From the NCBI GenBank assembly GCA_030037995.1, contig JASHPQ010000134.1, positions 1 to 56,169 of the forward strand: DNA of 56,169 bases, in the 5' to 3' direction. Shown here piece after piece: positions 2,657-45,091 of this stretch. This DNA is from Nitrososphaerales archaeon. Lineage in GTDB: Archaea; Thermoproteota; Nitrososphaeria; Nitrososphaerales; CADDZS01. The translations under genes were made by a program, and so were the position numbers. The notes beneath the pieces are model-generated. The model was not told the origin of the DNA. It did not search any database and was given only the letters and a program-made list of their open reading frames with translations. Each line of letters starts with the position of its first letter. Position 1 is the first letter of the stretch.

Positions 2657-2716
2657 ACTAAACTGGAAGACTTATTCAAATCTCCGAAGCATACGTTGAC
2701 CGTACGTGATAAACTC

Positions 2717-3676
2717 TTGAATCTAAAGATGGCCATTTTTCCGCCCCATATTCAGGAAGATTGGAAACAAAAGATCGAAAATGAGTTGCCCGGCGCGGAT
2801 GTCAAAGTCTTTCGAAACCCCACAGAGGCTGGGAGCTACATAGAGGATGCAAACTGTGCTTACGGTTTTGTACCTCCTGAACTGTTCTCGCGTGCCAAGA
2901 AATTGAAGTGGATTCAATGTTATGCAGCTGGCCCCGATCCCTCGTTCTGGTATGACGCCCTGGTGAATAGCGATGTAGTTGTTACGAATTTCAGAGGGGT
3001 CTACAACGATCACGTATCGGCTCATGCGCTTTCTTTCGTTCTTGCATTTTCTAGAAGGCTACATACTTTCTTTGCGAACCAAACAAGCGGTGTGTGGACT
3101 CAGTTACCGCCCGAACCCTACCTGCCCGAATCGACTGCTCTTGTTATCGGGGTCGGCGGGATAGGAAGCGAAACAGGACGTCTTTGCAAGGCATTTGGGA
3201 TGACTGTAATCGGGATAGATCCAAGAACGGCCCGCAGGCTTCCGTACTTTGACGAACTTCGTCCCGTTGAGGACCTGGAAGCCTGTCTTCCAAAGGCGGA
3301 TTTTGTGATAATTACAACGCCTGAGACACCACAGACCCGAAAAATGTTCGATTCCGCTAAGTTCGAGCTGATGAAAGATACTTCGTACTTGATCAACGTC
3401 GGACGCGGCTCCTGCGTCGTCGAAAAAGACCTTGTCGATGCTCTGGAAAGAAAAAAAATCGCAGGGGCCGGCCTCGACGTATTCGAAGTGGAACCCCTGC
3501 CCACGAGCAGCCCACTGTGGTCGAAGCGCAACGTGATAATTACTCCCCACATGGCGGCTTTGGAGGGAGTGGCGCGCGTGGACGAAAGGCGTACGAATAT
3601 TCTGCTTGAAAATGCCCGAAGGTTCTGTGGAGGCGAGGAGCTCATCAACGTGATGGATAAGAGGAACTGGTTTTAG
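2717..3676 (+). CDS. D-isomer-specific 2-hydroxyacid dehydrogenase
   Basis: NAD(P)-dependent oxidoreductase interconverting a 2-keto acid and a D-2-hydroxy acid. The Rossmann motif GVGGIG is near residue 145, the catalytic set is Arg230 (NVGRGS), Glu259 (DVFEVEP) and His278 (TPHMA). I chose the TTG at 2717 because the protein then begins MNLKMAIFPP, aligning exactly with the paralogue at 33134-34093 (MKLKMALLPP); an upstream TTG at 2696 and an ATG at 2729 are alternatives. The two paralogues share most residues, including the ending VMDK-x-NWF. It probably shares an operon with the aldolase before it. Substrate unknown; glyoxylate/hydroxypyruvate-type reductases are the nearest recognisable relatives. 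Confidence 0.88.
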   Translation: MNLKMAIFPPHIQEDWKQKIENELPGADVKVFRNPTEAGSYIEDANCAYGFVPPELFSRAKKLKWIQCYAAGPDPSFWYDALVNSDVVVTNFRGVYNDHVSAHALSFVLAFSRRLHTFFANQTSGVWTQLPPEPYLPESTALVIGVGGIGSETGRLCKAFGMTVIGIDPRTARRLPYFDELRPVEDLEACLPKADFVIITTPETPQTRKMFDSAKFELMKDTSYLINVGRGSCVVEKDLVDALERKKIAGAGLDVFEVEPLPTSSPLWSKRNVIITPHMAALEGVARVDERRTNILLENARRFCGGEELINVMDKRNWF

Positions 3677-7455: not shown

Positions 7456-8586
7456 GTGAAGATTACAAGCATCAAGGCAACGGCGCTCAAAAACAAAGAG
7501 CGCTCGCTCTCCGCCGGTCCAGGAGTGTGCATGGTGGAAGTTGAAACCTCCAACGGCCTGGTGGGAATCGGAGAAGCGTGTGCGCAAAGCGAAAATGACG
7601 AGGCAGCTCTCGCAACCGCCCTAATTCTGGAGAGGGGGATAAAACCGGTGGTCGTAGGACTGGATCCAGTCAACCCGAGGGCCATCTGGGAGAAGTTGTA
7701 CCTGGAGACCGAATGGTTTGGGAGGATGGGCACCGTCATGCATGCGATCAGCGCTCTGGATATTGCACTCTGGGATCTCATGGGGAAAGCTCTCGGGGTT
7801 TCCGTTTCCCGGCTGATCGGCGGCAGATTCAGAGAGTCGGTGAAGACGTACGCCAGCATCATCTTCGACATGGAAAATTTCGAGGCCATGGCGAGCGAAG
7901 CCAGGATCTGGACCGGCGAGGGCTACAAAGCTGTAAAGTTTGGCTGGGGCCAGACCCGCGACACTGCTTACGGTCTTGACGCGGAAAAAGACGAGGCGGC
8001 CGTCAAATATCTCCGCGAGTCCCTGGGTCACGGCGTCGATATCATGGTGGACGTGGGCAGATACGTGAACTGGACTCCCGCGCACGCCCTCGAAATGGCC
8101 CGGCGGTTGTCCAAGTACAACATCTACTGGCTGGAAGAGCCTCTCCCGCAGGACGATGTCGAAGGCTACGTGTGGCTCACAGATAAAAGCCCGGTAAAGA
8201 TCGCCACCGGAGAGGGCGAGTACAACAGATTCGGCTTCAAGCGGCTGATCACCTCGCACGCAGCTGACATTATCCAGCCCGATTTAGGCAAAGCGGGCGG
8301 CATCACCGAGGGCATGAGGATTGCGGATCTTGTACAGGCATGGAACTTGTCGCTCGTCCCGCACGGATTCAGCTCCGCGATCAACGTTGCCACCAACCTC
8401 CAGTGGATCTCGGCCATGCCCCAAGCCACGCTGCTGGAATTCCGGAGGACGAAGAGTCCGCTCCTTCAGGACCTGATAAAAAGTCCTTTTGTCGCGAAGA
8501 ACGGCAACCTCCAAATCCCGGATCGTCCCGGCCTCGGGATTGAACTCCGCGACGACATCGTGGAGCAGTGCAGGGTCAAAGCGTAG
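7456..8586 (+). CDS. mandelate racemase/muconate lactonizing enzyme family protein (KxG variant)
   Basis: Enolase-superfamily enzyme of 376 residues acting on a carboxylate by alpha-proton abstraction, as racemase, dehydratase or cycloisomerase. The metal ligands are Asp199 (IMVDVGRY), Glu227 (YWLEEP) and Glu252 (IATGEGE); Asp276 and His303 (VPHGF) form the right-hand general base pair. On the left, where mandelate racemase has K-x-K, it has VKFGWG with Lys161 followed by Gly163. The paralogue at 31855 has the same KFGWG, so this is a subgroup trait. GTG start. A sugar-acid dehydratase is the best guess. It opens a GC-richer block that continues with a permease. Confidence 0.85.
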   Translation: MKITSIKATALKNKERSLSAGPGVCMVEVETSNGLVGIGEACAQSENDEAALATALILERGIKPVVVGLDPVNPRAIWEKLYLETEWFGRMGTVMHAISALDIALWDLMGKALGVSVSRLIGGRFRESVKTYASIIFDMENFEAMASEARIWTGEGYKAVKFGWGQTRDTAYGLDAEKDEAAVKYLRESLGHGVDIMVDVGRYVNWTPAHALEMARRLSKYNIYWLEEPLPQDDVEGYVWLTDKSPVKIATGEGEYNRFGFKRLITSHAADIIQPDLGKAGGITEGMRIADLVQAWNLSLVPHGFSSAINVATNLQWISAMPQATLLEFRRTKSPLLQDLIKSPFVAKNGNLQIPDRPGLGIELRDDIVEQCRVKA

Positions 8587-10295: not shown

Positions 10296-10967
10296 CTAGA
10301 GAACTCCGTACTTGTCGTAGACTTGTTTCAGGAGCTTCCCTTCCAGGAGCTCCTCCCTCGTCCTGTTTTCCTTGGCCGCCTTGTCGAATGCTAGATCGAG
10401 CACTTGTTTTTCGACTTTCTTGGGAACGACCACGACCCCGTCGTAATCGCCAACGACCAGATCCCCGGCAGCCACGAGAACGCCTCCACAGCTGACCGGT
10501 ATATCGTAATCGATCATCCGCCCCCTGCCGTTGGAGTCCAGCGGCGAGATGGCCGTGGCGAATACCGGAAAATTTAGAGCAAAGATCTTCTTCACGTCGC
10601 GGACGCAGCTGTCTATGACCGCCGCTCTTGCTCCCCTCACCTTTGCCGCCGTGCTCATCAGCTCTCCCCACGGAGCGTTCCTCAGGGGTGCGTCCGTATT
10701 GGTAACGACCACGTCGCCCGGTCGAAGCTTGTCCATGAACTCGATCTCGATCTGATACGGATTCGGATCAGGAACGAACACGTCCATCCAGCTCGCCGTT
10801 CTCGCCCTGCCTGCAAAAACAAAATCCTCGCGCAGCGGCCGGATCCTGTGGGACATTGCATTATCGCGGTACCCGAGGGAATCCAGCGAATCGGAAATCA
10901 CCGGAGTGTAGAGCCCCTCCTCAATCCTTTGGAATAATTCAGCTTCGTTGCTGGTCATAGAACTCAT
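10296..10967 (-). CDS. RraA-family aldolase/decarboxylase-like protein
   Basis: A 223-residue protein of the RraA/4-hydroxy-4-methyl-2-oxoglutarate aldolase fold. The signature is WGELMSTAAKVRGARAAVID (100-119) followed by Arg123-Asp124 (CVRD), the substrate and metal site of the aldolase branch, then GDYDGVVVVP near 173. Presence of the R-D pair favours a metal-dependent 2-oxoacid aldolase or oxaloacetate-type decarboxylase over the RNase E inhibitor role known in bacteria. It is convergent with the permease (three-base gap) and divergent from hyuA, with which it shares a 92-base promoter region. Confidence 0.82.
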   Translation of the reverse strand: MSSMTSNEAELFQRIEEGLYTPVISDSLDSLGYRDNAMSHRIRPLREDFVFAGRARTASWMDVFVPDPNPYQIEIEFMDKLRPGDVVVTNTDAPLRNAPWGELMSTAAKVRGARAAVIDSCVRDVKKIFALNFPVFATAISPLDSNGRGRMIDYDIPVSCGGVLVAAGDLVVGDYDGVVVVPKKVEKQVLDLAFDKAAKENRTREELLEGKLLKQVYDKYGVL

Positions 10968-17109: not shown

Positions 17110-18306
17110 TCACAGGGCCTTCATGCGCTCCAGAGGGAGGGCACGATTTAGCTCGACTCCGAACCCCGGTTTGGTGGGGAGGCGTAACTTTCCATTATGG
17201 GGTACAGGCTCATCCAAGAGAAGAGGGTGAAGCATGGGCACAACCGACGCAGCATCTGGCGCCATCATCAAAAATTCCGTGAAGGGACTGTTGTGCCGAG
17301 TGATTACGAAATGATAACTGTACACGCTGGACGCATGAGGGACGGTCAACACTTCGTGGGCATCGGCAAGCGCAGAAATTCGGAGAAGTTCCGTGAGACC
17401 ACCGCACCACCCCACGTCCGGTTGAATGATATCTGCGCACTTCCAGTCCAGTAGCATCCGAAAGCCGTAGCGGGTCGCCTCGTGTTCGCCGGTGGTCACA
17501 AGGACATCAGGAGGAACGGATTTCTTCAGCTCTCGATACGACCAGTAGTCGTCCGGAATGAAGCATTCTTCAATCCACCTCAAGCGCGACGGCCGCAGTG
17601 CGTTGACTAGGCGCTTTGCATACGGAAGGTCGAGACTCATCCAGCAATCGTACATCAACCAAAAGTCATCACCGACTTTTTCTCGCATCCTTGCGAAACT
17701 ATCGACATTTTCTTTGAAACCATCATCGCCGCTTGCGGGGCCAAATCGAAGTGGCAGTTTCCCTCCGATAAATCCAATCTCTTTTGCGAGATCTGGTCTC
17801 GGGCCGGTTGCATAGAACTTGATCTCATCTCTAACTCTCCCGCCGATAAGGTCGTACACCGGTTCACTTCGCACCCGTCCTAAAAGATCCCAGAGAGCCA
17901 GATCTACGGCTGAAATGGCATTGAGGGCGATCCCTTTTCGTCCGTAATATTGGGTCGATCTGAACATCTGATCCCAGATGAGTTCGATCTGAGTGACACT
18001 TTTTCCTTTGATGAACCTTGAAAGATGATTCTCTATGATCCACGCCGCCGGGACTCCGCCGGTGCTCACACCGAAGCCTACCGTTCCGTCGCTGGCTTCC
18101 ACTTCGACGACTACAGTCCCAAGAACATCTATGCCCCAGGACTTGCGCGAGTTCCTGTACTCTACATACCTGGACATTGGAGTCGCTATCTGGCCCACTA
18201 TCCAGTGGCTCTGATCCTGGGCGTGATAATCTCCGCCAGCCTGCGACAGCGTGAACGCTCTAACATCGACGATCTTCTTTTCACTTCTAGAAGACTCCAA
18301 GATCAA
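17110..18306 (-). CDS. rhmD: L-rhamnonate dehydratase
   Basis: Enolase-superfamily dehydratase turning L-rhamnonate into 2-keto-3-deoxy-L-rhamnonate. The match to the RhmD subgroup is strong: GGKLPLRFGP (181-190), VGDDFWLMYDCWMSLD (211-226), RWIEECFIPDDYWSYREL, TTGEHEATRYGFRMLLD, ADIIQPDVGWCGGLTEL and VPHASSVYSYHF. Metal ligands Asp220, Glu246 and Glu274, base pair Asp297-His324. Length 398 residues is normal. TTG start; a TATA-like region lies about 40 bases upstream in the divergent intergenic stretch. Heads an operon with an alcohol dehydrogenase and a degenerate MBL protein. Activity on related acids (L-mannonate, L-lyxonate) is possible. Confidence 0.86.
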   Translation of the reverse strand: MILESSRSEKKIVDVRAFTLSQAGGDYHAQDQSHWIVGQIATPMSRYVEYRNSRKSWGIDVLGTVVVEVEASDGTVGFGVSTGGVPAAWIIENHLSRFIKGKSVTQIELIWDQMFRSTQYYGRKGIALNAISAVDLALWDLLGRVRSEPVYDLIGGRVRDEIKFYATGPRPDLAKEIGFIGGKLPLRFGPASGDDGFKENVDSFARMREKVGDDFWLMYDCWMSLDLPYAKRLVNALRPSRLRWIEECFIPDDYWSYRELKKSVPPDVLVTTGEHEATRYGFRMLLDWKCADIIQPDVGWCGGLTELLRISALADAHEVLTVPHASSVYSYHFVITRHNSPFTEFLMMAPDAASVVPMLHPLLLDEPVPHNGKLRLPTKPGFGVELNRALPLERMKAL

Positions 18307-18418: not shown

Positions 18419-18452
18419 AACGAACGTCCCTCTGTCTTTGCGACATCTACCG

Positions 18453-19610
18453 ATGAAAATTACAGAGTTAGAGACTTACGTGATCGGTAATCCCTGGAAA
18501 CGCTGGGTGTTTGTAAAGCTTCTAACCAGCAACGGGATGTATGGAATTTCTGAAGCCACTCTTTACCAAGAGAGTGCTGCCGTAGTTTCGGAATTGAACG
18601 AAAAGAGGGCGTTCTTTATCGGAAAAGACCCCATGCGGATTGAGGCTATCTGGTCTGACTGGTACCGTGATTCTTTTGCGAGGAATAGCTCCGCCGTGAG
18701 CATCACGGCTCTGAGCGCCGTGGAAGTGGCCTGCTGGGATTTGGTGGGCAAGGAACTGGGTTGCCCGATCTACACGCTTCTGGGCGGAGCTATCAGAAAT
18801 CGGGTCAAGATATATGCAAACGGCTGGTACACGTATGTGACATCACCAGAAGACTTCGCCGCAAAAGCATCTAAAGTGGTGGAAATGGGTTATAGAGCCC
18901 TAAAGTTCGATCCATTTGGTACAAGCTACATGAGTGTCGATCACGTTCAGATTAATTGCGCTATCAAGAAAATCCAAGCAGTCAGGGAGGCAGTCGGAGA
19001 TGATGTCGATCTTCTGGTTGAAGGGCACGGACGCTTCACTCCGGAATCTGCTATTCGAATCGCAAAGCTGATGGAACCTTTCCATCCCAGGTGGTTCGAA
19101 GAACCGGTTCCTCCGGAAGATCTCGAGGCACTTCTCGGCGTAAAGAACAAAACAATGATCCCGATTGCCACCGGGGAAAGGCTGGTCACGAAGTACGCCT
19201 TTGCGCCGCTCCTAGATCGGCATGCAGTTGATATAATTCAGCCTGACATCGTAAACACTGGAGGTATCCTCGAAGCAAAAAAGATCAGTGCGATGGCTGA
19301 ATCGCATTATGTAACAGTCGCGCCGCATCAGGCAGAAGGGCCGCTCGCTACCGCCACCTGTCTTCAGCTCGACGCATGCATTCCTAATTTTGAGATCCAG
19401 GAAAGTTTCGATGAATTTGACGTCGGTTGGCGGAGGGAATTACTTACTTCGGAGTATCAGATAACGGACGGCCAAATGTCAATTCCTGATAGACCGGGGC
19501 TCGGGATAGATCTGAACATGAAGGCAGTCGGGACGCACTTGGCCAAGGAGGTCACGGATTTCAATATCTTCAATGAGGGATGGGAGAACAGGAATCTGCG
19601 AAACTCATAG
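18453..19610 (+). CDS. sugar-acid dehydratase of the galactonate/gluconate dehydratase type
   Basis: Enolase-superfamily enzyme, 385 residues from the ATG at 18453. Features: ALKFDPFG with Lys151, LLVEGHGRFTP with Glu190, RWFEEPVPPED with Glu216, PIATGERL with Glu242, IIQPDIVNTGG with Asp264 and the general base His292 in VAPHQAEGP. The V-E-G-H-G-R-F and A-P-H motifs are those of D-galactonate/D-gluconate/D-arabinonate-type dehydratases rather than mandelate racemase. Product would be a 2-keto-3-deoxy acid. Divergently transcribed from rhmD. Exact substrate uncertain. Confidence 0.85.
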   Translation: MKITELETYVIGNPWKRWVFVKLLTSNGMYGISEATLYQESAAVVSELNEKRAFFIGKDPMRIEAIWSDWYRDSFARNSSAVSITALSAVEVACWDLVGKELGCPIYTLLGGAIRNRVKIYANGWYTYVTSPEDFAAKASKVVEMGYRALKFDPFGTSYMSVDHVQINCAIKKIQAVREAVGDDVDLLVEGHGRFTPESAIRIAKLMEPFHPRWFEEPVPPEDLEALLGVKNKTMIPIATGERLVTKYAFAPLLDRHAVDIIQPDIVNTGGILEAKKISAMAESHYVTVAPHQAEGPLATATCLQLDACIPNFEIQESFDEFDVGWRRELLTSEYQITDGQMSIPDRPGLGIDLNMKAVGTHLAKEVTDFNIFNEGWENRNLRNS

Positions 19611-28912: not shown

Positions 28913-29920
28913 ATGATGAGACTCATTCAGTTTCTAGACCTTGACGGCTCGAGAAAAGTGGCGCGAGTTATCGAACACGAGAATAGATTGCGATTGGTGG
29001 AAAACACGAGATCGATCTATGACTTGGCAATGCACGCCATTCGAACGAACTTGAGTCTTGAGACTGTCGTCACACAAAGGGAAAGTCGTGATGTGACACT
29101 TGATTATGACAAAATTGTCTTAGGCAATCGGCTCCTGCAGCCACTAGACCATCCCACGGACCCTGCTCATTGTCTTGTCACGGGAACGGGCTTGGATCAT
29201 CTTGGTAGCGCCCTAGCCAGAGATGCCATGCATATGACAGCTGAAAAGGAAAAGACGATGTCTGACTCTATGAAGATGTTCAAGCTAGGAGTAGAGGGGG
29301 GCAAACCCAGGTTAGGAGAGGTCGGATCTCAGCCAGAGTGGTTTTACAAGGGTGACGGAAGCTCGGTTATCCCTCCGGAACATCCGCTCAATCTTCCAAG
29401 CTACGCACTAGACGGAGGCGAGGAAGCGGAGATCGTGGGACTGTACGTGATTTCAGAAGCTGGCGATCCGTTTCGAGTAGGTTTTGCCCTTGGGAACGAA
29501 TACTCCGATCACGTTATGGAAAAACAAAATTATCTCTATCTTGCACATTCGAAGCTGCGAGACTGCTCAATTGGGCCCGAGGTTCTCGTCGGCCGTCTTC
29601 CGGATTCCGTTATTGGAACTGTCCGCCTGATACGCAGCGACGAAACAATATGGTCAAGCAAGTTTTTGACAGGTGAGGCTAATATGACCCATAGTATTTC
29701 AAATATCGAGTACCATCATTTCAAATACGAAAGATTTAGGCGGCCAGGCGATGTTCACTGTCATTTCTTCGGGGCCTCTGTTCTCAGCTTCTCTGCTGGA
29801 GTCGTCGCCCAATCTGGTGATGTGTTCGAGATTTCGGCACCGGAGTTCGGGCGTCCGTTGCGAAATCCTCTTGAAAGTAGAAAAACGAATAGCACAAAAG
29901 TGGTTATCAAATCTCTCTAG
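28913..29920 (+). CDS. AraD1/GguC-type fumarylacetoacetate hydrolase family protein
   Basis: A 335-residue protein of the FAH superfamily, AraD1 (GguC) branch found in sugar-acid operons. Visible signatures: DHPTDPAHCLVTGTGLDHLG (79-98), DSMKMFKLG, QPEWFYKGDGS, the metal-binding DGGEEAEI (167-174) with Glu171 and Glu173, and ALGNEYSDHVMEKQNYLYLA. Members are linked to dehydration or cleavage of 2-keto-3-deoxy sugar acids; a role as the 2,4-diketo-3-deoxy acid hydrolase, giving pyruvate and lactate or glycolate, is inference. ATG start, divergent from the TPR pseudogene. Confidence 0.84.
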   Translation: MMRLIQFLDLDGSRKVARVIEHENRLRLVENTRSIYDLAMHAIRTNLSLETVVTQRESRDVTLDYDKIVLGNRLLQPLDHPTDPAHCLVTGTGLDHLGSALARDAMHMTAEKEKTMSDSMKMFKLGVEGGKPRLGEVGSQPEWFYKGDGSSVIPPEHPLNLPSYALDGGEEAEIVGLYVISEAGDPFRVGFALGNEYSDHVMEKQNYLYLAHSKLRDCSIGPEVLVGRLPDSVIGTVRLIRSDETIWSSKFLTGEANMTHSISNIEYHHFKYERFRRPGDVHCHFFGASVLSFSAGVVAQSGDVFEISAPEFGRPLRNPLESRKTNSTKVVIKSL

Positions 29921-31854: not shown

Positions 31855-33021
31855 ATGCACATCAAAAGCATAGAGTCATTCGTTGTCCATTCTCAGGACA
31901 CGACGACGAAAGAGATTCACGAACAGCGCAATGTCGGCGGTCATTCTGGATATTTTGTTCTGGTTCACATCAAAACAGAGGAAGGAATTGATGGATGGGG
32001 AGAATGCTCGACGGGCAGCGACTATGGTGAGGGAGCCTTTGCCGCAAAGGAGATCATTGACAGAGCGTACTCTCATAGAATTATGGGAAAGGATCCTCGG
32101 GAATTCAAGAAGCTTTGGGATATCCTCTACGCCTCCACTGAAAAGTACGGGCAGCATGACATCGGGGTGCTCGCCTTGAGTGGCGTGGACACGGCGCTGG
32201 TCGACATTTCATCAAAAGAATATGGGGTCCCGGCATGCGTTTTGCTCGGTGGTTGCGTCAGCAACGAAATTCCTCTCTATGCTAGCTTACTTTTTGACAT
32301 GGATGATCCCGGCGGGACTGCCAACAAAGGAAAAAGGTACGTTGGCGATCACTATACCGGAGTAAAGTTCGGCTGGGGCATGATTCCAGAAAAACCATTT
32401 GGGAAGGATTTCAACAAAGACGAAGAGATAGTTAGGACGATCCGCGAAACTCTGGGATACGAAATCAAGTTGATGGTCGATATTGGAAGATACGTCAACA
32501 TGTCCTCCTCCCAGGCCCTGCAGCTGGCCAAGAGAATTTCAAAGTACGACATTACGTGGCTGGAAGAACCTCTCCCGCGTGACGATGTCGAAGGCTACAG
32601 CTCGCTCACCGAAATGTCTCCGATCCCCATAGCGGCCGGCGAAGGTTACAGGGGGATCCAGGATTTCAAGCGTGCAATCATTAACCGGGAAGTCGATCTC
32701 CTCCAGCCGGACGTCGGCAAAGCTGGAGGTCTGTCACACACGAAGACCATCATCGAGCTCGCGCACTCCTTCAACAAGAGCTGGGTACCTCACAACTGGA
32801 GCACTGCAATCAATACCGCCGCAACAATCCAGCTCGTCGCATCAGCTCCCGATGGGTACCTCATGGAGTACAAGCAGGAATCAAATCCCCTAATCCAGAA
32901 GCTTGTAAAAGGATCCGGCGAAACATTCAAGATTCGTGAAGGAAGAATTCAGGTTCCGAAAGGCCCCGGGCTGGGCATAGAAATCGATGAAGACGTGGTG
33001 GACGAATTCAACGTGACCTGA
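31855..33021 (+). CDS. mandelate racemase/muconate lactonizing enzyme family protein (KxG variant, second copy)
   Basis: Enolase-superfamily enzyme of 388 residues, close paralogue of the gene at 7456. It shares GVKFGWGM with Lys171 and Gly173, VDIGRYVN with Asp209, TWLEEPLPRDDVEGY with Glu237, Glu263 (AAGEGY), LQPDVGKAGG with Asp286 and the base His313 (VPHNWS). ATG start. Next to it, convergent, is the second hydroxyacid dehydrogenase, repeating the pairing of enzyme families seen near 2700-8600. Likely a sugar-acid dehydratase. Confidence 0.85.
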   Translation: MHIKSIESFVVHSQDTTTKEIHEQRNVGGHSGYFVLVHIKTEEGIDGWGECSTGSDYGEGAFAAKEIIDRAYSHRIMGKDPREFKKLWDILYASTEKYGQHDIGVLALSGVDTALVDISSKEYGVPACVLLGGCVSNEIPLYASLLFDMDDPGGTANKGKRYVGDHYTGVKFGWGMIPEKPFGKDFNKDEEIVRTIRETLGYEIKLMVDIGRYVNMSSSQALQLAKRISKYDITWLEEPLPRDDVEGYSSLTEMSPIPIAAGEGYRGIQDFKRAIINREVDLLQPDVGKAGGLSHTKTIIELAHSFNKSWVPHNWSTAINTAATIQLVASAPDGYLMEYKQESNPLIQKLVKGSGETFKIREGRIQVPKGPGLGIEIDEDVVDEFNVT

Positions 33022-33133: not shown

Positions 33134-34093
33134 TTAGAACCAGTTTTTCTTGTCCATTACATTCAGGAGCTCCTCACCGCGACTGAATCTCCTGCAGTTT
33201 TCCAGAAGAATTCTAGTCCGCCGTTCCGGAACATGCGGGGAGTCCGGATTAGCTGCCACGTGTGGAGTGATTATGACATTGGGATTGGACCACAACCGAC
33301 TGTTCGGAGGCAATGGTTCTTCCTCGAACACGTCCAGCCCGGCTCCGGCAAGCTTCCTTCCTTCCAGAGCCTCGACCAGATCGTTCAGGACCACCACGGC
33401 ACCGCGGCCAACATTGACGAGGTAAGCTGTTTCTTTCATTAAATTCAATCTCCTGGAATTAATCATCCGCTGCGTTTGCGGTGTCTCTGGAGTGGTGATG
33501 ATCACGAAATCGGCCGGAGGAAGCACTTTCTCTAGAGAATCCACAGAATAGAGCTCGTCAAAGGATTCTGGTTTCTCGGTCACCCTAGGATCTACGCCAA
33601 TGACTTTCATTCCAAACGCTTTGCACAACCGTCCCGTCTCCGCTCCGATACCTCCGACCCCAATAATCAGCGCAGATGTCTCTGGAAGGTACACTGGATA
33701 CGGTAACTGTTTCCATTCCGTTCCGGCTTGTTGGAGACTGTACCTGTGGAGATTGCGCGAAAAGGCCAGGACAAAAGACATCGCGTGCGCCGCGACGTGT
33801 TCATTGAAGATCCCCCGAAAGTTCGTAACCACGACGTCGCTCTGCACGAGTTCGTCGTACCAGAACGAGCGAGCCGGGCCAGCCGCATAGCACTGGATCC
33901 ACTTTAATTTTTTCGCGCGCCTGAATAATTCTGGAGGCACAAAACCATAAGCGCAGGTGGCATCGTCCATGTAGTCGCCTACCTCATCCGGGCTCGCGAA
34001 GGTCCTCACTTCAGCACCAGGTACAGCCTCACGAATTTGGTCGTCCCAGCCTTCCATGACATCGGGAGGCAGGAGTGCCATTTTCAATTTCAT
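33134..34093 (-). CDS. D-isomer-specific 2-hydroxyacid dehydrogenase (second copy)
   Basis: Paralogue of the gene at 2717, with the same length and ending. GVGGIGAETGRLCKAFGMKV is the Rossmann motif (from about 145), catalytic Arg near 230 (NVGRGA), Glu near 259 (DVFEEEP) and His near 278 (TPHVA). I chose the ATG at 34093 (MKLKMALLPP); a TTG at 34108 would add five residues. Reduces a 2-keto acid or oxidises a D-2-hydroxy acid. Convergent with the enolase-superfamily gene. Confidence 0.88.
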   Translation of the reverse strand: MKLKMALLPPDVMEGWDDQIREAVPGAEVRTFASPDEVGDYMDDATCAYGFVPPELFRRAKKLKWIQCYAAGPARSFWYDELVQSDVVVTNFRGIFNEHVAAHAMSFVLAFSRNLHRYSLQQAGTEWKQLPYPVYLPETSALIIGVGGIGAETGRLCKAFGMKVIGVDPRVTEKPESFDELYSVDSLEKVLPPADFVIITTPETPQTQRMINSRRLNLMKETAYLVNVGRGAVVVLNDLVEALEGRKLAGAGLDVFEEEPLPPNSRLWSNPNVIITPHVAANPDSPHVPERRTRILLENCRRFSRGEELLNVMDKKNWF

Positions 34094-34269
34094 TTTGTTG
34101 TCAGGCAACGGGGTGTCACCTGCGCTCCTTCAATGTTTACGTAGGTTCGATCCTCCTCCAGCGGAGCGTTTGTCAAGTTTTCTGGGCCTTGAGACCGACA
34201 TGAATTAACCAGCGTGATTTTTGCCTCAGTCATCTCCAACTCAGGCGCCCATAGAGAAAAGTCTGTCTT

Positions 34270-35562: not shown

Positions 35563-37623
35563 TTGAAGACAACGGAAATTTGGAACGTTTCGCCGGAAGA
35601 AAAACCGGTTGCTGGTGATCCATCACTTCACCTAACGCAAATAGCTCTTGCAGGATATACTCAGCTTGCGGCTGACACCCTTCTTAGAAAAGAAAATCAG
35701 GGCAAAGTGCGGTCTATAATTGAGAATTCGATAGATCACCTCGACAAAGCTTTCCGTGAAAATAGGTCAACGACTCGGAAAAGATGCGTGGAAGTGCTGC
35801 TCGAAGTGGCCCTCAATTTTCTGGGAATGGAACGAAAGCGCACTGGTTTCTCCGATGAAGAGACTGCAGCAATTGTCGACAAGATCACGGCGACTCTGCA
35901 AAATTGGGAACGCGCAGATAGTGGTGTGTCGGTGCGGGCCGTTGTCGATCAAATGCTACGGGCAATGAAGCTGGTCCTGAGTGGTAAAGGGATGGTTGCA
36001 AAGATGGCCGAAGAAATCGAGGGAGCCCTTGTCACGGAGGATCTCGCAAACAGCTTCATCGCAGCTTCAAAGCAAGCCCTTCAGAACAATGTATACTACC
36101 GCATTGTGGACGGGGGACTGAGCAAGTTCGGAAACGACTCTGCTACTGGATTGCGATGGGCAAGGCATCTAGGAGCCGTGCAGGTTTCGAGCAATCCCGT
36201 GATAGCTGCGAGAGCGTATGACGAGATTGCTGATCTGTGGGATCGGTTCGAGATAGTGGCATCGGCTCATCCGGAGTGGCGGAGGGATCCAGAAAGATAT
36301 GCAGATGAAATTGCTCTTTATGGCACTGTGGTCTCGCTGTTACCCAATATCCTGGACTTTCGACCCATTGCCCTGCTTTCTGATTTCAAGGATGGAATGG
36401 TGAGCATCCAGCTCAACCCACGCAAGGCTTCGAACGCTGAAGAGAGCGTGAAAGATGCCCTAAAGTTCTACTCTATTTTGCAGGAGATCCTGGAAAGCTA
36501 CGATGCCTACTTGACGGCCGGTGCGAATGCCATGCTGAAAGGCAGGCCCAACATAGTTTTCAAGGTTTCCACCTGCGCTGTCGAGGCAATCGCCTTGACT
36601 GAAAGTCTTGATGGGATGGGCATTGGAACAAACAACACCGTGACATTTACGGTGCCGCAGGAGATCAAGGTATCGCTAGTAGCAATGAAGGGGCTCGCAG
36701 CTGCCCTAAAGGCTGGAACTCCTATTACCACTATCTATATCACAAACATGGAGGGCAGACTCGAGGATCATCTGCGCGAGAGCCAGGGTGCCAACCTCCT
36801 GCGAACCGCACTGGAGGAAAACGCGGACAAAGATGCCAAGATCAGATCGTTGGCTCAAGCGACGGGCGCTCTGGATGATCTGAAGAAAGCAGGAAGCTCA
36901 GTGGAACAGCAGCTCAATTTGCTGTGCAGCAAGAAATACCTGAAGTCCTTGGCGGATGGGTGGTTCATACAGGCTGTCGGAATCGACAAAGCGCCCCTGC
37001 TAAAACAAACTGAAGAAGATATTCGGATGTCCGGAATCTACATCACCAGAAAAGTCTTTCAGCTTCTATTCCAACCGGCGCTGAAGAGCAAGTTGGTCAA
37101 ATACCTCGAGGAAGAATTCGATCTCTCCGAAACTGAAGCTACTCAGGTGGTCGAAGCAGTAAATCTCCTGCCAGCGTCGAAGAGACGCGCGGAGGATACC
37201 TATCTGGTGCTGGGCGATCGGGATGTCTCGAACCTCACAAACACAGAGTTCCCCGATCACCAGCTGAAGGTGCTGCAAAGGTCCCGAGAGAGCGGTTTTC
37301 GACTATCAGACTTCGAGAATTCGATTGCCGCCGAGCCGGATCGTGCTACACTTGAAAGGTTACTCCAAATACCGGATTTTGTGAAAGGCTATGAGCTGAA
37401 CTCCGGTCTTGTTCGTGAATTGAGTAAAATCGGAATCGCGGTGTCGATGGAGAGTGGTGGCCTTGAACCAGAAGAGTGGTTCTCCTACGGCCCCGCAAGA
37501 AAAACGATGGACGAGTTCAACAACGCCTACCTTTCATTTCGAAGCAGGCTTTTGAGCTCACTTGCGAAACCGTCGATGATCGACCGGCAACAAGAAATTA
37601 CCACGCAAACAAAGGCAAGGTAA
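35563..37623 (+). CDS. large divergent transaldolase-like protein (686 aa)
   Basis: I recognise a transaldolase-type TIM barrel in the middle of an otherwise unfamiliar protein. Around residue 205 it has AVQVSSNPVIAARAY (family: T-T-N-P-S-L-I), near 278 GMVSIQLNPRKASNAEESV (family: V-S-x-E-V), then PNIVFKVSTCAVEAI with Lys334 where the Schiff-base Lys stands (I-K-I-P-A-T), NNTVTFTVPQ near 358 (N-x-T-L-x-F-S-x-x-Q) and TNMEGRLEDHL near 395 (P-F-V-G-R-x-x-D). Flanking this are about 195 N-terminal and 270 C-terminal helical residues; normal transaldolases have 210-390 in all. TTG start, just after an in-frame stop. Followed by an MBL hydrolase 36 bases downstream. A sugar or deoxy-acid aldolase is possible. 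Confidence 0.6.
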   Translation: MKTTEIWNVSPEEKPVAGDPSLHLTQIALAGYTQLAADTLLRKENQGKVRSIIENSIDHLDKAFRENRSTTRKRCVEVLLEVALNFLGMERKRTGFSDEETAAIVDKITATLQNWERADSGVSVRAVVDQMLRAMKLVLSGKGMVAKMAEEIEGALVTEDLANSFIAASKQALQNNVYYRIVDGGLSKFGNDSATGLRWARHLGAVQVSSNPVIAARAYDEIADLWDRFEIVASAHPEWRRDPERYADEIALYGTVVSLLPNILDFRPIALLSDFKDGMVSIQLNPRKASNAEESVKDALKFYSILQEILESYDAYLTAGANAMLKGRPNIVFKVSTCAVEAIALTESLDGMGIGTNNTVTFTVPQEIKVSLVAMKGLAAALKAGTPITTIYITNMEGRLEDHLRESQGANLLRTALEENADKDAKIRSLAQATGALDDLKKAGSSVEQQLNLLCSKKYLKSLADGWFIQAVGIDKAPLLKQTEEDIRMSGIYITRKVFQLLFQPALKSKLVKYLEEEFDLSETEATQVVEAVNLLPASKRRAEDTYLVLGDRDVSNLTNTEFPDHQLKVLQRSRESGFRLSDFENSIAAEPDRATLERLLQIPDFVKGYELNSGLVRELSKIGIAVSMESGGLEPEEWFSYGPARKTMDEFNNAYLSFRSRLLSSLAKPSMIDRQQEITTQTKAR

Positions 37624-37659: not shown

Positions 37660-38550
37660 TTGCGTTTTTCAATGAAGTGGCCCGATTCCTTGAAGCAATT
37701 CAAGCTCGGCCGTGCCGATGTCTCCATCTTCAACAACGGAGAGCTCGCAATTTGTCTTGCGGAAATTATGAACGAGCAAAGCCGCTGGGATCCGAGCTAC
37801 AATGAATACGTAGAGAATACGAGACTCTTTCCCAGTCTGACCATTCACATTTCATTGCAGGGGGGTGCCTCCGTGCTCGTGGATCCAAACGATTTCCTTC
37901 TATCTTCGCCGCCTGGTTCCGAATACTATCCTCAATCAAGGGAGTATGTGCCACCACCCGTGATTTTTGATCAGCTGGAGGGGTCGGGCATTTCGCTTTC
38001 CAAGGTAACCCACGTCGTGATTACCCACGCGCATTTTGATCACTATGCGGGAGTGACGAGAAAGGATTTCAGAGGAAATTTTCGGCCGGCCTTTCCTAAT
38101 GCCAAATATTTCTTGAATCACGCGGACTGGGATCGCCCGGAAACGCAGCAGGAATTGCTGAATAACCCCCATTCTGATGTGAGCAACAGTCTGGGAGTGC
38201 TAAACGAGGAGGGTGTCTTGCAACTGGTCGAGGGTACGGAGGAGCTCCTCTCTGAGATCGCAATTCTACCCGCCCCTGGAGAAACGCCAGGTCACCAAGT
38301 ATTGAGACTGCGCTCAGAGGGGGAGACGCTATACTGTACGGGGGATCTGTTTCATGATTTCATAGAAGTGGAGAATGCTTCGGCAATGTCTTCGTGGGCC
38401 GACTATGCGACCAATCTCAAAAGCAAGGAAACTATAGTAAAGCTCGCACTACAAGAAAATGCCTACCTCATTCCCGCCCATATGCAATTGGGACGACTAT
38501 CGATGAAGGACTCCAAAATCAAATGGAACGCAGTTTTAGAGATCGTCTAG
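37660..38550 (+). CDS. MBL-fold metallo-hydrolase
   Basis: Complete metallo-beta-lactamase-fold hydrolase of 296 residues. THAHFDHYAGV holds His123, His125, Asp127 and His128; later ligands are the His of ETPGHQVL, the Asp of CTGDLFHD and the His of IPAHMQ. So both metal sites are present, unlike the paralogue at 15252. Start TTG at 37660 or ATG at 37672. Probably cotranscribed with the transaldolase-like gene 36 bases upstream. Lactonase or other hydrolase; substrate unknown. Twenty-six bases (37718-37743) recur exactly at 28826-28851. Confidence 0.85.
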   Translation: MRFSMKWPDSLKQFKLGRADVSIFNNGELAICLAEIMNEQSRWDPSYNEYVENTRLFPSLTIHISLQGGASVLVDPNDFLLSSPPGSEYYPQSREYVPPPVIFDQLEGSGISLSKVTHVVITHAHFDHYAGVTRKDFRGNFRPAFPNAKYFLNHADWDRPETQQELLNNPHSDVSNSLGVLNEEGVLQLVEGTEELLSEIAILPAPGETPGHQVLRLRSEGETLYCTGDLFHDFIEVENASAMSSWADYATNLKSKETIVKLALQENAYLIPAHMQLGRLSMKDSKIKWNAVLEIV

Positions 38551-41138: not shown

Positions 41139-42181
41139 ATGACGAAACCCGATACGAATCGCCAATGGTTGCTTGCAAAGAGGCCAACAGGGCGTGTTGG
41201 ACTGGAAAACTACCGATGGGCAGAGTCTCCGATTCCATCACCTAAAGAGGGACAGGTTCTGGTCAGAAACCTCTGGTTATCTCTCGACCCTACTCAGATT
41301 CTGTTCACCATGGAGGGCGTGGGGGCTTACGCGATCCCGATAGGGGGAGTCATGCGTTCGATCGCATCAGGCAGGATAGTTGAATCGCAGCTTTCCGGCT
41401 TTGCCCCGGGTGATCTTGTTCAAGGTTTTTTCGGCTGGGAGGATTACAGCCTCTCAGACGGCGGCCCCAGCCCCATGCCTGACGACCTCCCAATGCTGAA
41501 GATTCCTCCGGATGTCTCGCCAGAACTCGCGGTTGGAACTCTAGGGATTACAGGGATGGCGGCTTATTTTGGGACGATCGACGTCGCCAAGCCTAAACCC
41601 GGAGAGACATTCGTGGTCTCGAGCGCCGCGGGAGGGTGGGATCTGTGGCTGGGCAAATCGCAAAGATTCAGGGGCTCCGCGTCATAGGCGTTACTGCGGG
41701 GAAGGAGAGACGCGAGAGGCTCTTGGGAGAGCTCGGATTCGATGGCGCCATCGATCGGCTCTCAGAGGATATGGGCTCGAAGCTGGATGAGTTGTGCCCG
41801 GGAGGTGTTGATATCTTCTTCGACACCAATTCACTCCCATCCGTAATCAACCCGATGCTTAGAAGGTTGAGGCATATGGGACGGGTCGTCCTTTGCGGGG
41901 CCACCCCCTATTACATTTCGGAAGAACGCCCGAAGGAATATGTGAGTTACACTGCCTTGATCATGAAGCGCGGGCGGATGGAGGGACTACTGGCGAGGGA
42001 GTATGTCGACAGATTTCCCGAAGCCAGAGCGGCCCTTGCGGGCTGGATCAAGTCAGGTCGACTCAAGCCGCTACATGACACGGTAGTGGGATTGGAGAAC
42101 GCTCCCAGCGCACTTCAACGGGTGTTTACCAGCGCCAATTTCGGCAAGCAGTTGCTTAGGATTTCGCCGGATAATGACTGA
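41139..42181 (+). pseudogene. MDR-family NADP-dependent oxidoreductase (curcumin/alkenal reductase type), frameshifted
   Basis: The first frame (41139-41687) gives QWLLAKRPTGRVGLENY, SLDPTQ and a catalytic-domain start through ETFVVSSAAGG; the second (to 42181) gives GSVAGQIAKIQGLRVIGV, DIFFDTNSLPSVINPMLRRL and a normal C-terminus. Adding one G to the GGG at 41634-41636 restores the glycine-rich AAGGVGSVAGQIAK nucleotide loop and a protein of about 347 residues, the usual length of the zinc-free prostaglandin/alkenal reductase branch. Either a young pseudogene or a base-calling error. ATG start. Confidence 0.75.
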
Positions 42182-43407: not shown

Positions 43408-44073
43408 ATGATCAGGTCCATCAATTCGAAAGATGTAACGTTCATCATCGAAAGCATCGCAAAGAGAGTCCACGAAAAAGTAGGCTACCTCACCGAACTG
43501 GACTCGGCGGTAGGCGACGGCGATCACGGAGCCAATCTGGATCGTGGTTTTGCGGAAGTCGTTCGGCGCGTGGCGCAATCCAAAGAGCCTGATGTTGGTG
43601 TGATTCTAGAATTGACGGGAGCTACTCTCCTGTCCTCAATGGGAGGGGCGTCCGGGCCGCTGTACGGGACCGCCTTTGGAAGAGCTGGGCGTGCATGCAG
43701 AGGAAAACAAGAGATCGGAATTGCAGACATTTCGCTAATGTTCCAGGCGGCGGAGCAGGGCATAGTTTCTCTGGGCGGTGCAAAAGTCGGAGACAAAACC
43801 ATGCTCGATGCGGTTCATCCTGCTGCCGAAGCCGCGAGGCAAGCTGTAGAGCAGGGCCAGGTCGACCTAGTGAGAGCCTTTGAACTGATCACCGCCGGGG
43901 CAGAGGCCGGGCTGGAAACCACGAAGAAGCTCGTCTCCAGAAAGGGACGTGCCTCGTACCTCGGAGAGAGGAGTCTGGGCCACTACGACGTGGGCGCAGC
44001 TTCCTTCTGCATAATGGTTAGGGCAGTGTTTGAGATGCTGAAGAATATGGATGTGCCACGAAATTTAGAGTAG
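43408..44073 (+). CDS. dhaL: dihydroxyacetone kinase subunit DhaL
   Basis: ADP/ATP-binding subunit of dihydroxyacetone kinase, 221 residues. ELDSAVGDGDHGANLDRGF contains Asp32, Asp37 and Asp39, the magnesium ligands; LLSSMGGASGPLYGTAFGRA and GDKTMLDAVHPA follow. It works with DhaK to phosphorylate dihydroxyacetone or a similar short keto-sugar. ATG start. Its 3' end overlaps that of dhaK on the opposite strand by nine bases, an unusual arrangement since the subunits are normally cotranscribed. No DhaM phosphotransfer subunit is in the window. Confidence 0.9.
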   Translation: MIRSINSKDVTFIIESIAKRVHEKVGYLTELDSAVGDGDHGANLDRGFAEVVRRVAQSKEPDVGVILELTGATLLSSMGGASGPLYGTAFGRAGRACRGKQEIGIADISLMFQAAEQGIVSLGGAKVGDKTMLDAVHPAAEAARQAVEQGQVDLVRAFELITAGAEAGLETTKKLVSRKGRASYLGERSLGHYDVGAASFCIMVRAVFEMLKNMDVPRNLE

Positions 44074-45057
44074 TTTCGGGAAGCTAGGAGTACGTTCTGG
44101 TTCGAGCAACAGCTCTTTCATCTCGTCGTCCACTCTCAGAAGCGTAAGCGATACCCCTGCCATGTCCAGCGAGGTAACAAAGCTCCCAGCAAAAGACCTA
44201 AAAATCTTTGTACCATTTTCATGGAGAAGCTTCACCACTTTCCGAGAAAAAATGAGAAGCTCCATCATCGGCGTGGCGCCCATGCCGTTCACCATCAACA
44301 CGACTTCCTCCTCCCTCCGCAAGACGAGATCCTTGGAAACCCGATCATAGAGCACGGTCGCTACTTCGTTGGCCGCCATCATTCTAGTTCTTTGGATTCC
44401 CGGTTCTCCGTGTACGCCAATCCCCAGCTCCTGCTCGTCCTCCTGAAGCGCAAACATGGGCTTTCCCACCCTCGGCAGGGTGCAGGAAGTTAGGGCGACG
44501 CCCATCGAGCGGGTGTTCGCCACAACTCTCTCTCCGATTCTCTGGGTATCAAGCAAATTGTCGCCACGCTCCGCGGCAGCCCCTGCAATCTTGAGTGCAA
44601 ATATAGTTCCAGCAACTCCACGCCTATTTTCAGGACTCTCCACTGCCACATCGTCGTTTACGACCACGCGCCCGATCTCTATTCCATCGTCGGAAGCCAT
44701 TTCCTCTGCCAGCTTAAAGTTCATGAGGTCTCCAGAGTAGTTGTTGATGATCAAAAGAACCCCTCGCCCGCCGTGCACGTTACGAATGGCAGAATAGATC
44801 TGGTCCGGCGGCGGCGCTGTGAATACCTCGCCCGCGATCGAAGCATCCAGCATTCCTTTTCCCACAAATCCCCCGTGCAGCGGCTCATGGCCGCTCCCCC
44901 CGCCGCTTACCAACGAAACTTTTCCCTTCACCGGAGATTCCTTCCTCAAAATAACATTCGAATTGGGGAAGCGCTGAAGGATGTTCGGATAGAGAAGAGT
45001 CAGGCCGTCAAGTTCTTCGTCGACCACGAGGTTTACGTCATTCACGAGCTTTTTCAT
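44065..45057 (-). CDS. dhaK: dihydroxyacetone kinase subunit DhaK
   Basis: Substrate-binding subunit, about 330 residues from the ATG at 45057. VSGGGSGHEPLHGGFVGKGM (50-69) and NYSGD (Asp110) line the active site and His216 in GVHGEPG forms the covalent hemiaminal with the substrate. I prefer the ATG at 45057 because a TATA-like box at 45092-45101 would start the message near 45070; a longer frame from 45090 adds 11 unlikely residues. Convergent with dhaL. It may take up dihydroxyacetone made by alcohol dehydrogenases or aldolases encoded nearby. Confidence 0.9.
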   Translation of the reverse strand: MKKLVNDVNLVVDEELDGLTLLYPNILQRFPNSNVILRKESPVKGKVSLVSGGGSGHEPLHGGFVGKGMLDASIAGEVFTAPPPDQIYSAIRNVHGGRGVLLIINNYSGDLMNFKLAEEMASDDGIEIGRVVVNDDVAVESPENRRGVAGTIFALKIAGAAAERGDNLLDTQRIGERVVANTRSMGVALTSCTLPRVGKPMFALQEDEQELGIGVHGEPGIQRTRMMAANEVATVLYDRVSKDLVLRREEEVVLMVNGMGATPMMELLIFSRKVVKLLHENGTKIFRSFAGSFVTSLDMAGVSLTLLRVDDEMKELLLEPERTPSFPKLL

Positions 45058-45091
45058 GTTCAGAGATAGCGTACAAAACGGGAAAACCACA

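Follow-up and report, generated by a model that had tools for sequence, protein, structure and literature searches.

What does a protein of 686 residues with the landmarks of a transaldolase (TAL) do in an archaeal sugar-acid island? The window analyzed here, a 56,169-nucleotide stretch of DNA from a Nitrososphaerales archaeon, is such an island. A first-pass annotation had placed the TAL landmarks, including a Schiff-base-type Lys334, in order in the middle of the protein, between two unknown flanking domains. It had left open whether this is an aldolase of a new kind, acting on unusual sugars or deoxy acids, or whether a dead barrel serves here as a scaffold. The ORF has an in-frame stop immediately 5′ of its TTG start, and the orthologue in genome G007, which is 55% identical over the full length, has a TTG start at the matching position (Table 1).

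The Pfam model TAL_FSA (PF00923) matched residues 201 to 432 with 40.2 bits, above its gathering cut-off of 27, and it matched all 41 aligned full-length homologues from Thermoproteota. In an equivalog test, the best NCBIfam transaldolase model reached 27.9 bits for a cut-off of 367, which places the protein outside classical transaldolase (EC 2.2.1.2). As PF00923 scores above its cut-off and the specific NCBIfam models far below theirs, this is a superfamily member that corresponds to no named enzyme. Profile searches of the PDB retrieved the C. glutamicum transaldolase 3r5e (4e-6) and the Neisseria transaldolase 3clm. In the alignments with PDB chains K334 pairs with the Lys of an IKIP/IKVP motif, and hhalign against small archaeal TALs (E 1.7e-5) placed it on a Lys again. 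These results confirm the earlier observation.

From a sample of 398 Thermoproteota genomes, a two-sequence profile retrieved full-length homologues (frames of ~690 to 750 residues) in 53, the window's own included, a count that omits marginal matches in G120 and G224. The gene is patchy among the window's close kin, since 100 relatives contained one further full-length homologue (G007). A scan of genomic-contig and viral-contig collections with the single protein returned no close relative; with a two-sequence alignment, the sole match in the same collections was a Nitrososphaerales MAG record (JOPF014). No homologue was found in the plasmid collection. These proteins constitute a large, previously undescribed archaeal branch of the transaldolase family, of which the window protein is an intact member. 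Family-level annotation probably carries the branch as plain "transaldolase."

In the alignment of 41 Thermoproteota members, with identities down to ~37%, the invariant positions include D192, Q283, K334, N357, T359, T394, M396, R399, S539, K540, R541, T561 to P564, and Q567, and N211 is kept in 40 of the 41. The Schiff-base Lys that defines the superfamily and its Asp, Asn, Glu-or-Gln, Asn, Thr, and Ser/Ala/Thr partners have their counterparts in K334, D192, N211, Q283, N357, T359, and T394. In Escherichia coli TalB the substrate phosphate is bound by two Arg and one Ser (PMC3962226), and both Arg (R399 and R541) and the Ser (S539) of this anion site are invariant in the large branch. The large conserved extension might suggest an inactive barrel serving as a scaffold or regulator, but across these divergent sequences the invariant positions are mostly catalytic or ligand-site residues. 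The invariant catalytic and anion-site set argues that the barrel is not dead, contradicting the scaffold option, which we consider most improbable and have dropped. The enzyme is thus predicted, at the level of sequence, to be catalytically competent and of class I (Schiff base), and the alignments support the earlier assignment of Lys334.

Judged by motif, residues 186 to 406 would form barrel strands 1 to 6. The ~185 residues that precede them occur family-wide with conserved positions of their own, and Pfam and PDB profile searches with this extension gave no match. Two AlphaFold runs, on two sequences each, reached a pLDDT of ~44. In the C-terminal half, LPASKRR (539 to 541) and TNTEFP (559 to 564, within TNTEFPDHQL) have an order and spacing that we take to resemble strands 7 and 8 of actinobacterial-type transaldolase. 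Because of this resemblance the barrel probably extends to ~570, and, at the level of motifs, the C-terminal half is probably the remainder of an enlarged barrel with a tail rather than a new domain. A profile of this half retrieved no TAL from the PDB, and its weak matches were judged to be due to chance. Of the two flanking domains first proposed, the N-terminal one (~195 extra residues) therefore stands, at ~185 residues, while the 270 extra C-terminal residues had been partly misparsed and most likely belong to the enlarged barrel.

Table 1. Coordinates of the large TAL gene, its parts, and selected neighbors in the window.
Feature	Position	Strand	Basis
Large transaldolase-superfamily protein, 686 aa, TTG start	35563..37623	+	PF00923 above cut-off; full-length homologues in 52 other genomes of 398 Thermoproteota
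N-terminal helical extension, residues 1 to ~185	35563..36117	+	Family-conserved; no Pfam/PDB match; mainly helix in low-confidence model
Predicted TAL barrel core, residues ~186 to 406 (D192, N211, Q283, K334, N357, T359, T394, M396, R399)	36118..36780	+	PF00923 at 201 to 432; invariant columns; PDB and hhalign alignments
Lys334 codon, predicted Schiff-base lysine	36562..36564	+	Invariant 41/41; on TAL catalytic Lys motif
Residues 535 to 568, LPASKRR and TNTEFPDHQL, probable strands 7 and 8 with second anion-site Arg541/Ser539	37165..37266	+	Invariant S539, K540, R541, T561 to P564, Q567; motif only
MBL-fold hydrolase (lactonase-like), 36 bp downstream	37660..38550	+	PF00753 50 bits; well under the cut-offs of the YtnP/AidB lactonase models
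D-2-hydroxyacid dehydrogenase, candidate oxo-acid reductase	33134..34108	-	PF02826 185 bits; best NCBIfam model NF041369 218, below cut-off
Mandelate-racemase/enolase-superfamily sugar-acid dehydratase	31855..33021	+	MR_MLE_C 182 bits; galactonate-dehydratase-like 184 bits, below cut-off
DhaL, dihydroxyacetone kinase subunit	43408..44070	+	TIGR02365 208 bits; cut-off 138
DhaK, dihydroxyacetone kinase subunit	44068..45090	-	TIGR02363 434 bits; cut-off 406

Besides PF00923, the order of the catalytic residues, and the Lys motif, the branch shares with transaldolases (TalB; the actinobacterial type PRK03343/TIGR00876; PDB 3r5e and 3clm) the DG.VS, N.T.F, and R motifs and both anion-site Arg with the Ser. 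In contrast, it is twice as long, with a helical N-terminal extension and ~140 residues separating the strand-6 Arg from the strand-7 Ser; it has Gln for the catalytic Glu and an invariant Met for Phe178, and it scores far below the equivalog cut-offs. Its signature is mixed, with Gln283 at the strand-3 position and Met396 at the position of Tyr131 in fructose-6-phosphate aldolase (FSA) and Phe178 in TalB. We take the TalB equivalents to be Glu96 and Phe178. FSA has Gln59 at the former position and uses Tyr131 as the proton shuttle (PMC13259622). The large branch resembles FSA in this Gln, in the Asp/Asn/Lys/Thr set, and in a possible release of dihydroxyacetone, but it has the invariant Met396 instead of the Tyr, and FSA has ~220 residues and lacks extensions. 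By the features tested, the branch belongs to the transaldolase/FSA superfamily and lies outside classical transaldolase (by score and context) and outside FSA (by Tyr131).

Family membership and the retained anion-site Arg and Ser would also suit an oversized pentose-phosphate transaldolase, moving dihydroxyacetone between F6P/S7P and GA3P/E4P. However, transketolase does not track with the branch (17 of 40 carriers, compared with 17 to 22 of 40 non-carriers), and every tested carrier of family f43, presumably Thermofilaceae, lacks it. The window genome has a separate, canonical TAL of 223 residues 10 bp 3′ of a transketolase subunit, the pair being preceded by a ribulose-5-phosphate-epimerase-like ORF, and in G007 the canonical TAL lies 1.7 kb from transketolase. 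Gln283 and the invariant Met396 in place of the TalB Glu and Phe also argue against this role. We regard it as improbable and dropped it, given the lack of transketolase association and the canonical TAL found with transketolase elsewhere in the genome.

The genes that accompany the branch point to uronates and inositol. Of the 53 carriers, 34 have tagaturonate epimerase (UxaE), compared with 3 of the 345 non-carriers (Fisher 4e-32; 398 genomes), a comparison that is phylogenetically confounded and includes incomplete MAGs; the UxaE-positive carriers fall in 14 of the 19 carrier families. In 10 of these 34 carriers UxaE lies no more than 10 kb from the large TAL gene; fewer than one such genome was expected. 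The UxaE of G322 is full length (567 bits), starts 44 bp past the matched region, and is followed by glyoxylate reductase. UxaC-like proteins, scoring well below the glucuronate isomerase cut-off, were present in 25 of 53 carriers and 5 of 345 non-carriers. Of 40 carriers tested, only 3 had a match above cut-off to mannonate dehydratase UxuA, which comes next in the textbook pathway from fructuronate; this scarcity would also be compatible with a route through an MR_MLE-type mannonate dehydratase (ManD).

At least one gene of the uronate/inositol set occurs within seven genes of the large TAL gene at 29 of 42 loci; at the other 13 the associated genes are absent from that interval. Neighbor labels follow the cluster representative, and single loci may hold paralogues; the window's member of the "IolM" cluster is an ordinary alcohol dehydrogenase. 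IolM scored 521 to 546 bits (NCBIfam cut-off, 450) at the loci of G419, G322, and G455, IolG 372 bits (cut-off, 355) at that of G419, and IolN 302 bits in G322 and 241.5 in G419 (cut-off, 245). Glyoxylate reductase reached 488 to 600 bits (cut-off, 455) in G419, G322, and G295. IolB (222 to 226 bits; cut-off, 205) starts 8 to 29 bp 3′ of the large TAL gene in G145 and G110, and a CoA-acylating methylmalonate-semialdehyde dehydrogenase (MMSDH; 468 bits; cut-off, 448) lies two genes off in G007. IolO-like proteins at these loci scored 223 to 271 bits, below the cut-off of 300. Glycerate kinase adjoins the large TAL gene in G245 and is three genes off in G113, G148, and G173; since this kinase is almost ubiquitous across the phylum, its co-occurrence carries no information. 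DhaL and DhaK lie 5.8 to 6.4 kb 3′ of the large TAL gene in the window and Dak1/DhaK 7.6 kb from the G410 homologue, but only 5 of the 41 carriers tested had DhaK.

The retained catalytic residues together with the inositol and uronate neighbors indicate that the enzyme's probable reaction is the cleavage of a six-carbon sugar acid into two parts. Our main reading, to which we give slightly better than even odds (roughly 0.55), is a catalytically competent Schiff-base aldolase or transaldolase of inositol and hexuronate breakdown that cleaves ketoses bearing a C6 carboxylate. By their family functions, UxaE converts D-tagaturonate to D-fructuronate, and the product of IolB is 2-deoxy-5-keto-gluconate. 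IolO converts 5-keto-L-gluconate to D-tagaturonate (PMC12632266). Two entries to the large TAL could thus exist, one through IolO and UxaE and one through IolB. D-Fructuronate and its 5-deoxy analogue 2-deoxy-5-keto-gluconate have a common structure, HOCH2-CO-CHOH-CHOH-CHX-COOH, a fructose-type 2-ketose with a C6 carboxylate.

In this scheme, Lys334 would form a Schiff base with C2 of the ketose, and cleavage between C3 and C4 would leave the dihydroxyacetone unit on Lys334 and expel OHC-CHX-COOH, i.e., tartronate semialdehyde or malonate semialdehyde, from a carboxylate/oxo-acid pocket lined by Arg399, Arg541, and Ser539 as in the TalB-type anion site. Tartronate semialdehyde could then be reduced to glycerate by a reductase of the glyoxylate/hydroxypyruvate type and phosphorylated by glycerate kinase, and malonate semialdehyde could be converted to acetyl-CoA by a semialdehyde dehydrogenase of the type found in G007. 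The dihydroxyacetone unit would be either freed for DhaK/DhaL or moved to glyceraldehyde-3-phosphate to yield fructose-6-phosphate. The low frequency of DhaK among carriers rules out dihydroxyacetone in free form as the general product, and transfer to glyceraldehyde-3-phosphate is more likely outside the window and G410. The analysis shows the family membership, the invariant catalytic set, and the genomic association; from these we infer the substrate, the bond cleaved, release versus transfer, and the sharing of its relatives' activity by the window copy.

More specifically, and more tentatively, with odds somewhat short of even, the branch may be a ketohexuronate aldolase/transaldolase that cleaves D-fructuronate (or 2-deoxy-5-keto-gluconate) directly at C3-C4, so that one enzyme would serve both entries and bypass the mannonate/KDG route and the phosphorylated IolC/IolJ route. 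This predicted retro-aldol activity rests on genomic association. There is a precedent in sulfoglycolysis, as the sulfofructose transaldolase SqvA accommodates a sulfonate and cuts a ketose that is anionic at C6 in the same way (PMC9594981). The 6-deoxy-6-sulfofructose transaldolases (SqvA/BmSF-TAL) would share with the proposed model the cut of an acidic-C6 ketose and the retention of the glycerone unit. However, they are small, bacterial, and act on a sulfonate, and they are not near relatives of the large branch; BmSF-TAL was a weak match in the PDB profile search. IolJ (DKGP aldolase) with the kinase IolC would cleave 2-deoxy-5-keto-gluconate at the equivalent bond to give malonate semialdehyde, but IolJ takes a phosphorylated substrate and belongs to another aldolase family, and neither protein was found beside IolB at the TAL loci. 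In the open-access literature on fructuronate, tagaturonate, or uronate aldolases we found no paper naming such an enzyme, nor any pairing Ignisphaera with transaldolase; the activity is probably new and testable.

The same chemistry may act on another substrate (a non-phosphorylated ketose, a deoxy-ketose, or a ketopentonate), the inositol and uronate neighbors merely marking general sugar islands. GH53, FGGY and PfkB kinases, Gfo/Idh enzymes, sugar ABC transporters, and MR_MLE dehydratases are also neighbors at the TAL loci, and the window clade lacks UxaE. Nevertheless, IolO, UxaE, IolB, IolM, and IolN recur in unrelated families and converge on C6-carboxylate ketoses, and we hold this alternative to be unlikely, though less so than a pentose-phosphate role. 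The earlier suggestion of a new aldolase is well supported in its direction.

The window copy itself forms one clade with G007 and G142 (support, 100/100), with I393 and E397 beside strand 6 where other members have D/E393 and mostly G397. Searches for UxaE in the window genome (G000) and G007, and for a UxaC-like protein in G000, gave no match. Lack of UxaE and the differences at 393 and 397 raise the possibility of a different substrate preference in the window enzyme, and we infer that in this clade fructuronate is no more and no less likely than 2-deoxy-5-keto-gluconate or another sugar acid. G007 has an inositol-type set (IolG-like and IolE-like proteins, a thiamine enzyme resembling acetolactate synthase/IolD, and a semialdehyde dehydrogenase), and MR_MLE dehydratases, only ~31 to 33% identical to one another, lie near the large TAL gene in the window, G007, and G142. 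The MBL hydrolase that the first-pass annotation saw close behind the gene is present, but it is not a conserved neighbor at homologous loci, and we dropped it as a functional partner.

If the main reading is true, it fills a gap in archaeal carbon metabolism, as genomes with an inositol/uronate front end, mostly without UxuA, would exit via a transaldolase and not KDG. It would also represent a second recruitment of the transaldolase fold for acidic sugars, after sulfoglycolysis, with high-temperature activity in cultivable archaea and a biocatalytic use in dihydroxyacetone plus oxo-acid aldol chemistry. Even with a wrong substrate, an undercharacterized, conserved large branch is present in ~13% of sampled Thermoproteota genomes.

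Several further features of the homologous loci were noted. URO-D-like (MtaA-type) proteins flank the large TAL gene at L049, L064, L065, L067, and L073, together with a B12-binding-like protein at L049 and L064, a possible link to demethylation of methylated sugars. A DeoC/LacD-type class I aldolase gene lies directly 5′ on the same strand at L068, L074, L075, and L077, and a Fae-Hps fusion (L055, 5552-6811) is found near the G107 and G135 homologues. The UxaE gene of G245 (Ignisphaera aggregans; L079, 6515-7964) is in two ORFs with a stop within the match, the rest of the locus being kept.

The window itself contains four mandelate-racemase/enolase-superfamily genes (7456-8583, 17113-18306, 18438-19607, and 31855-33021), an HpcH/HpaI aldolase (1877-2653), and an RraA-like protein (10299-10967). 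Two similar D-2-hydroxyacid dehydrogenases of ~325 aa (2696-3673 and 33134-34108), 30 kb apart, are likely paralogues. The DhaL and DhaK genes are convergent and share 3 bases at their 3′ ends, an odd arrangement for subunits of one kinase. An MDR-type oxidoreductase (41139-42181) is split between two ORFs that overlap and lie in different frames, which points to a frameshift or an error in the assembly, and a GguC/AraD1-family protein is encoded at 28913-29917 (NF040903, 493 bits; cut-off, 340).
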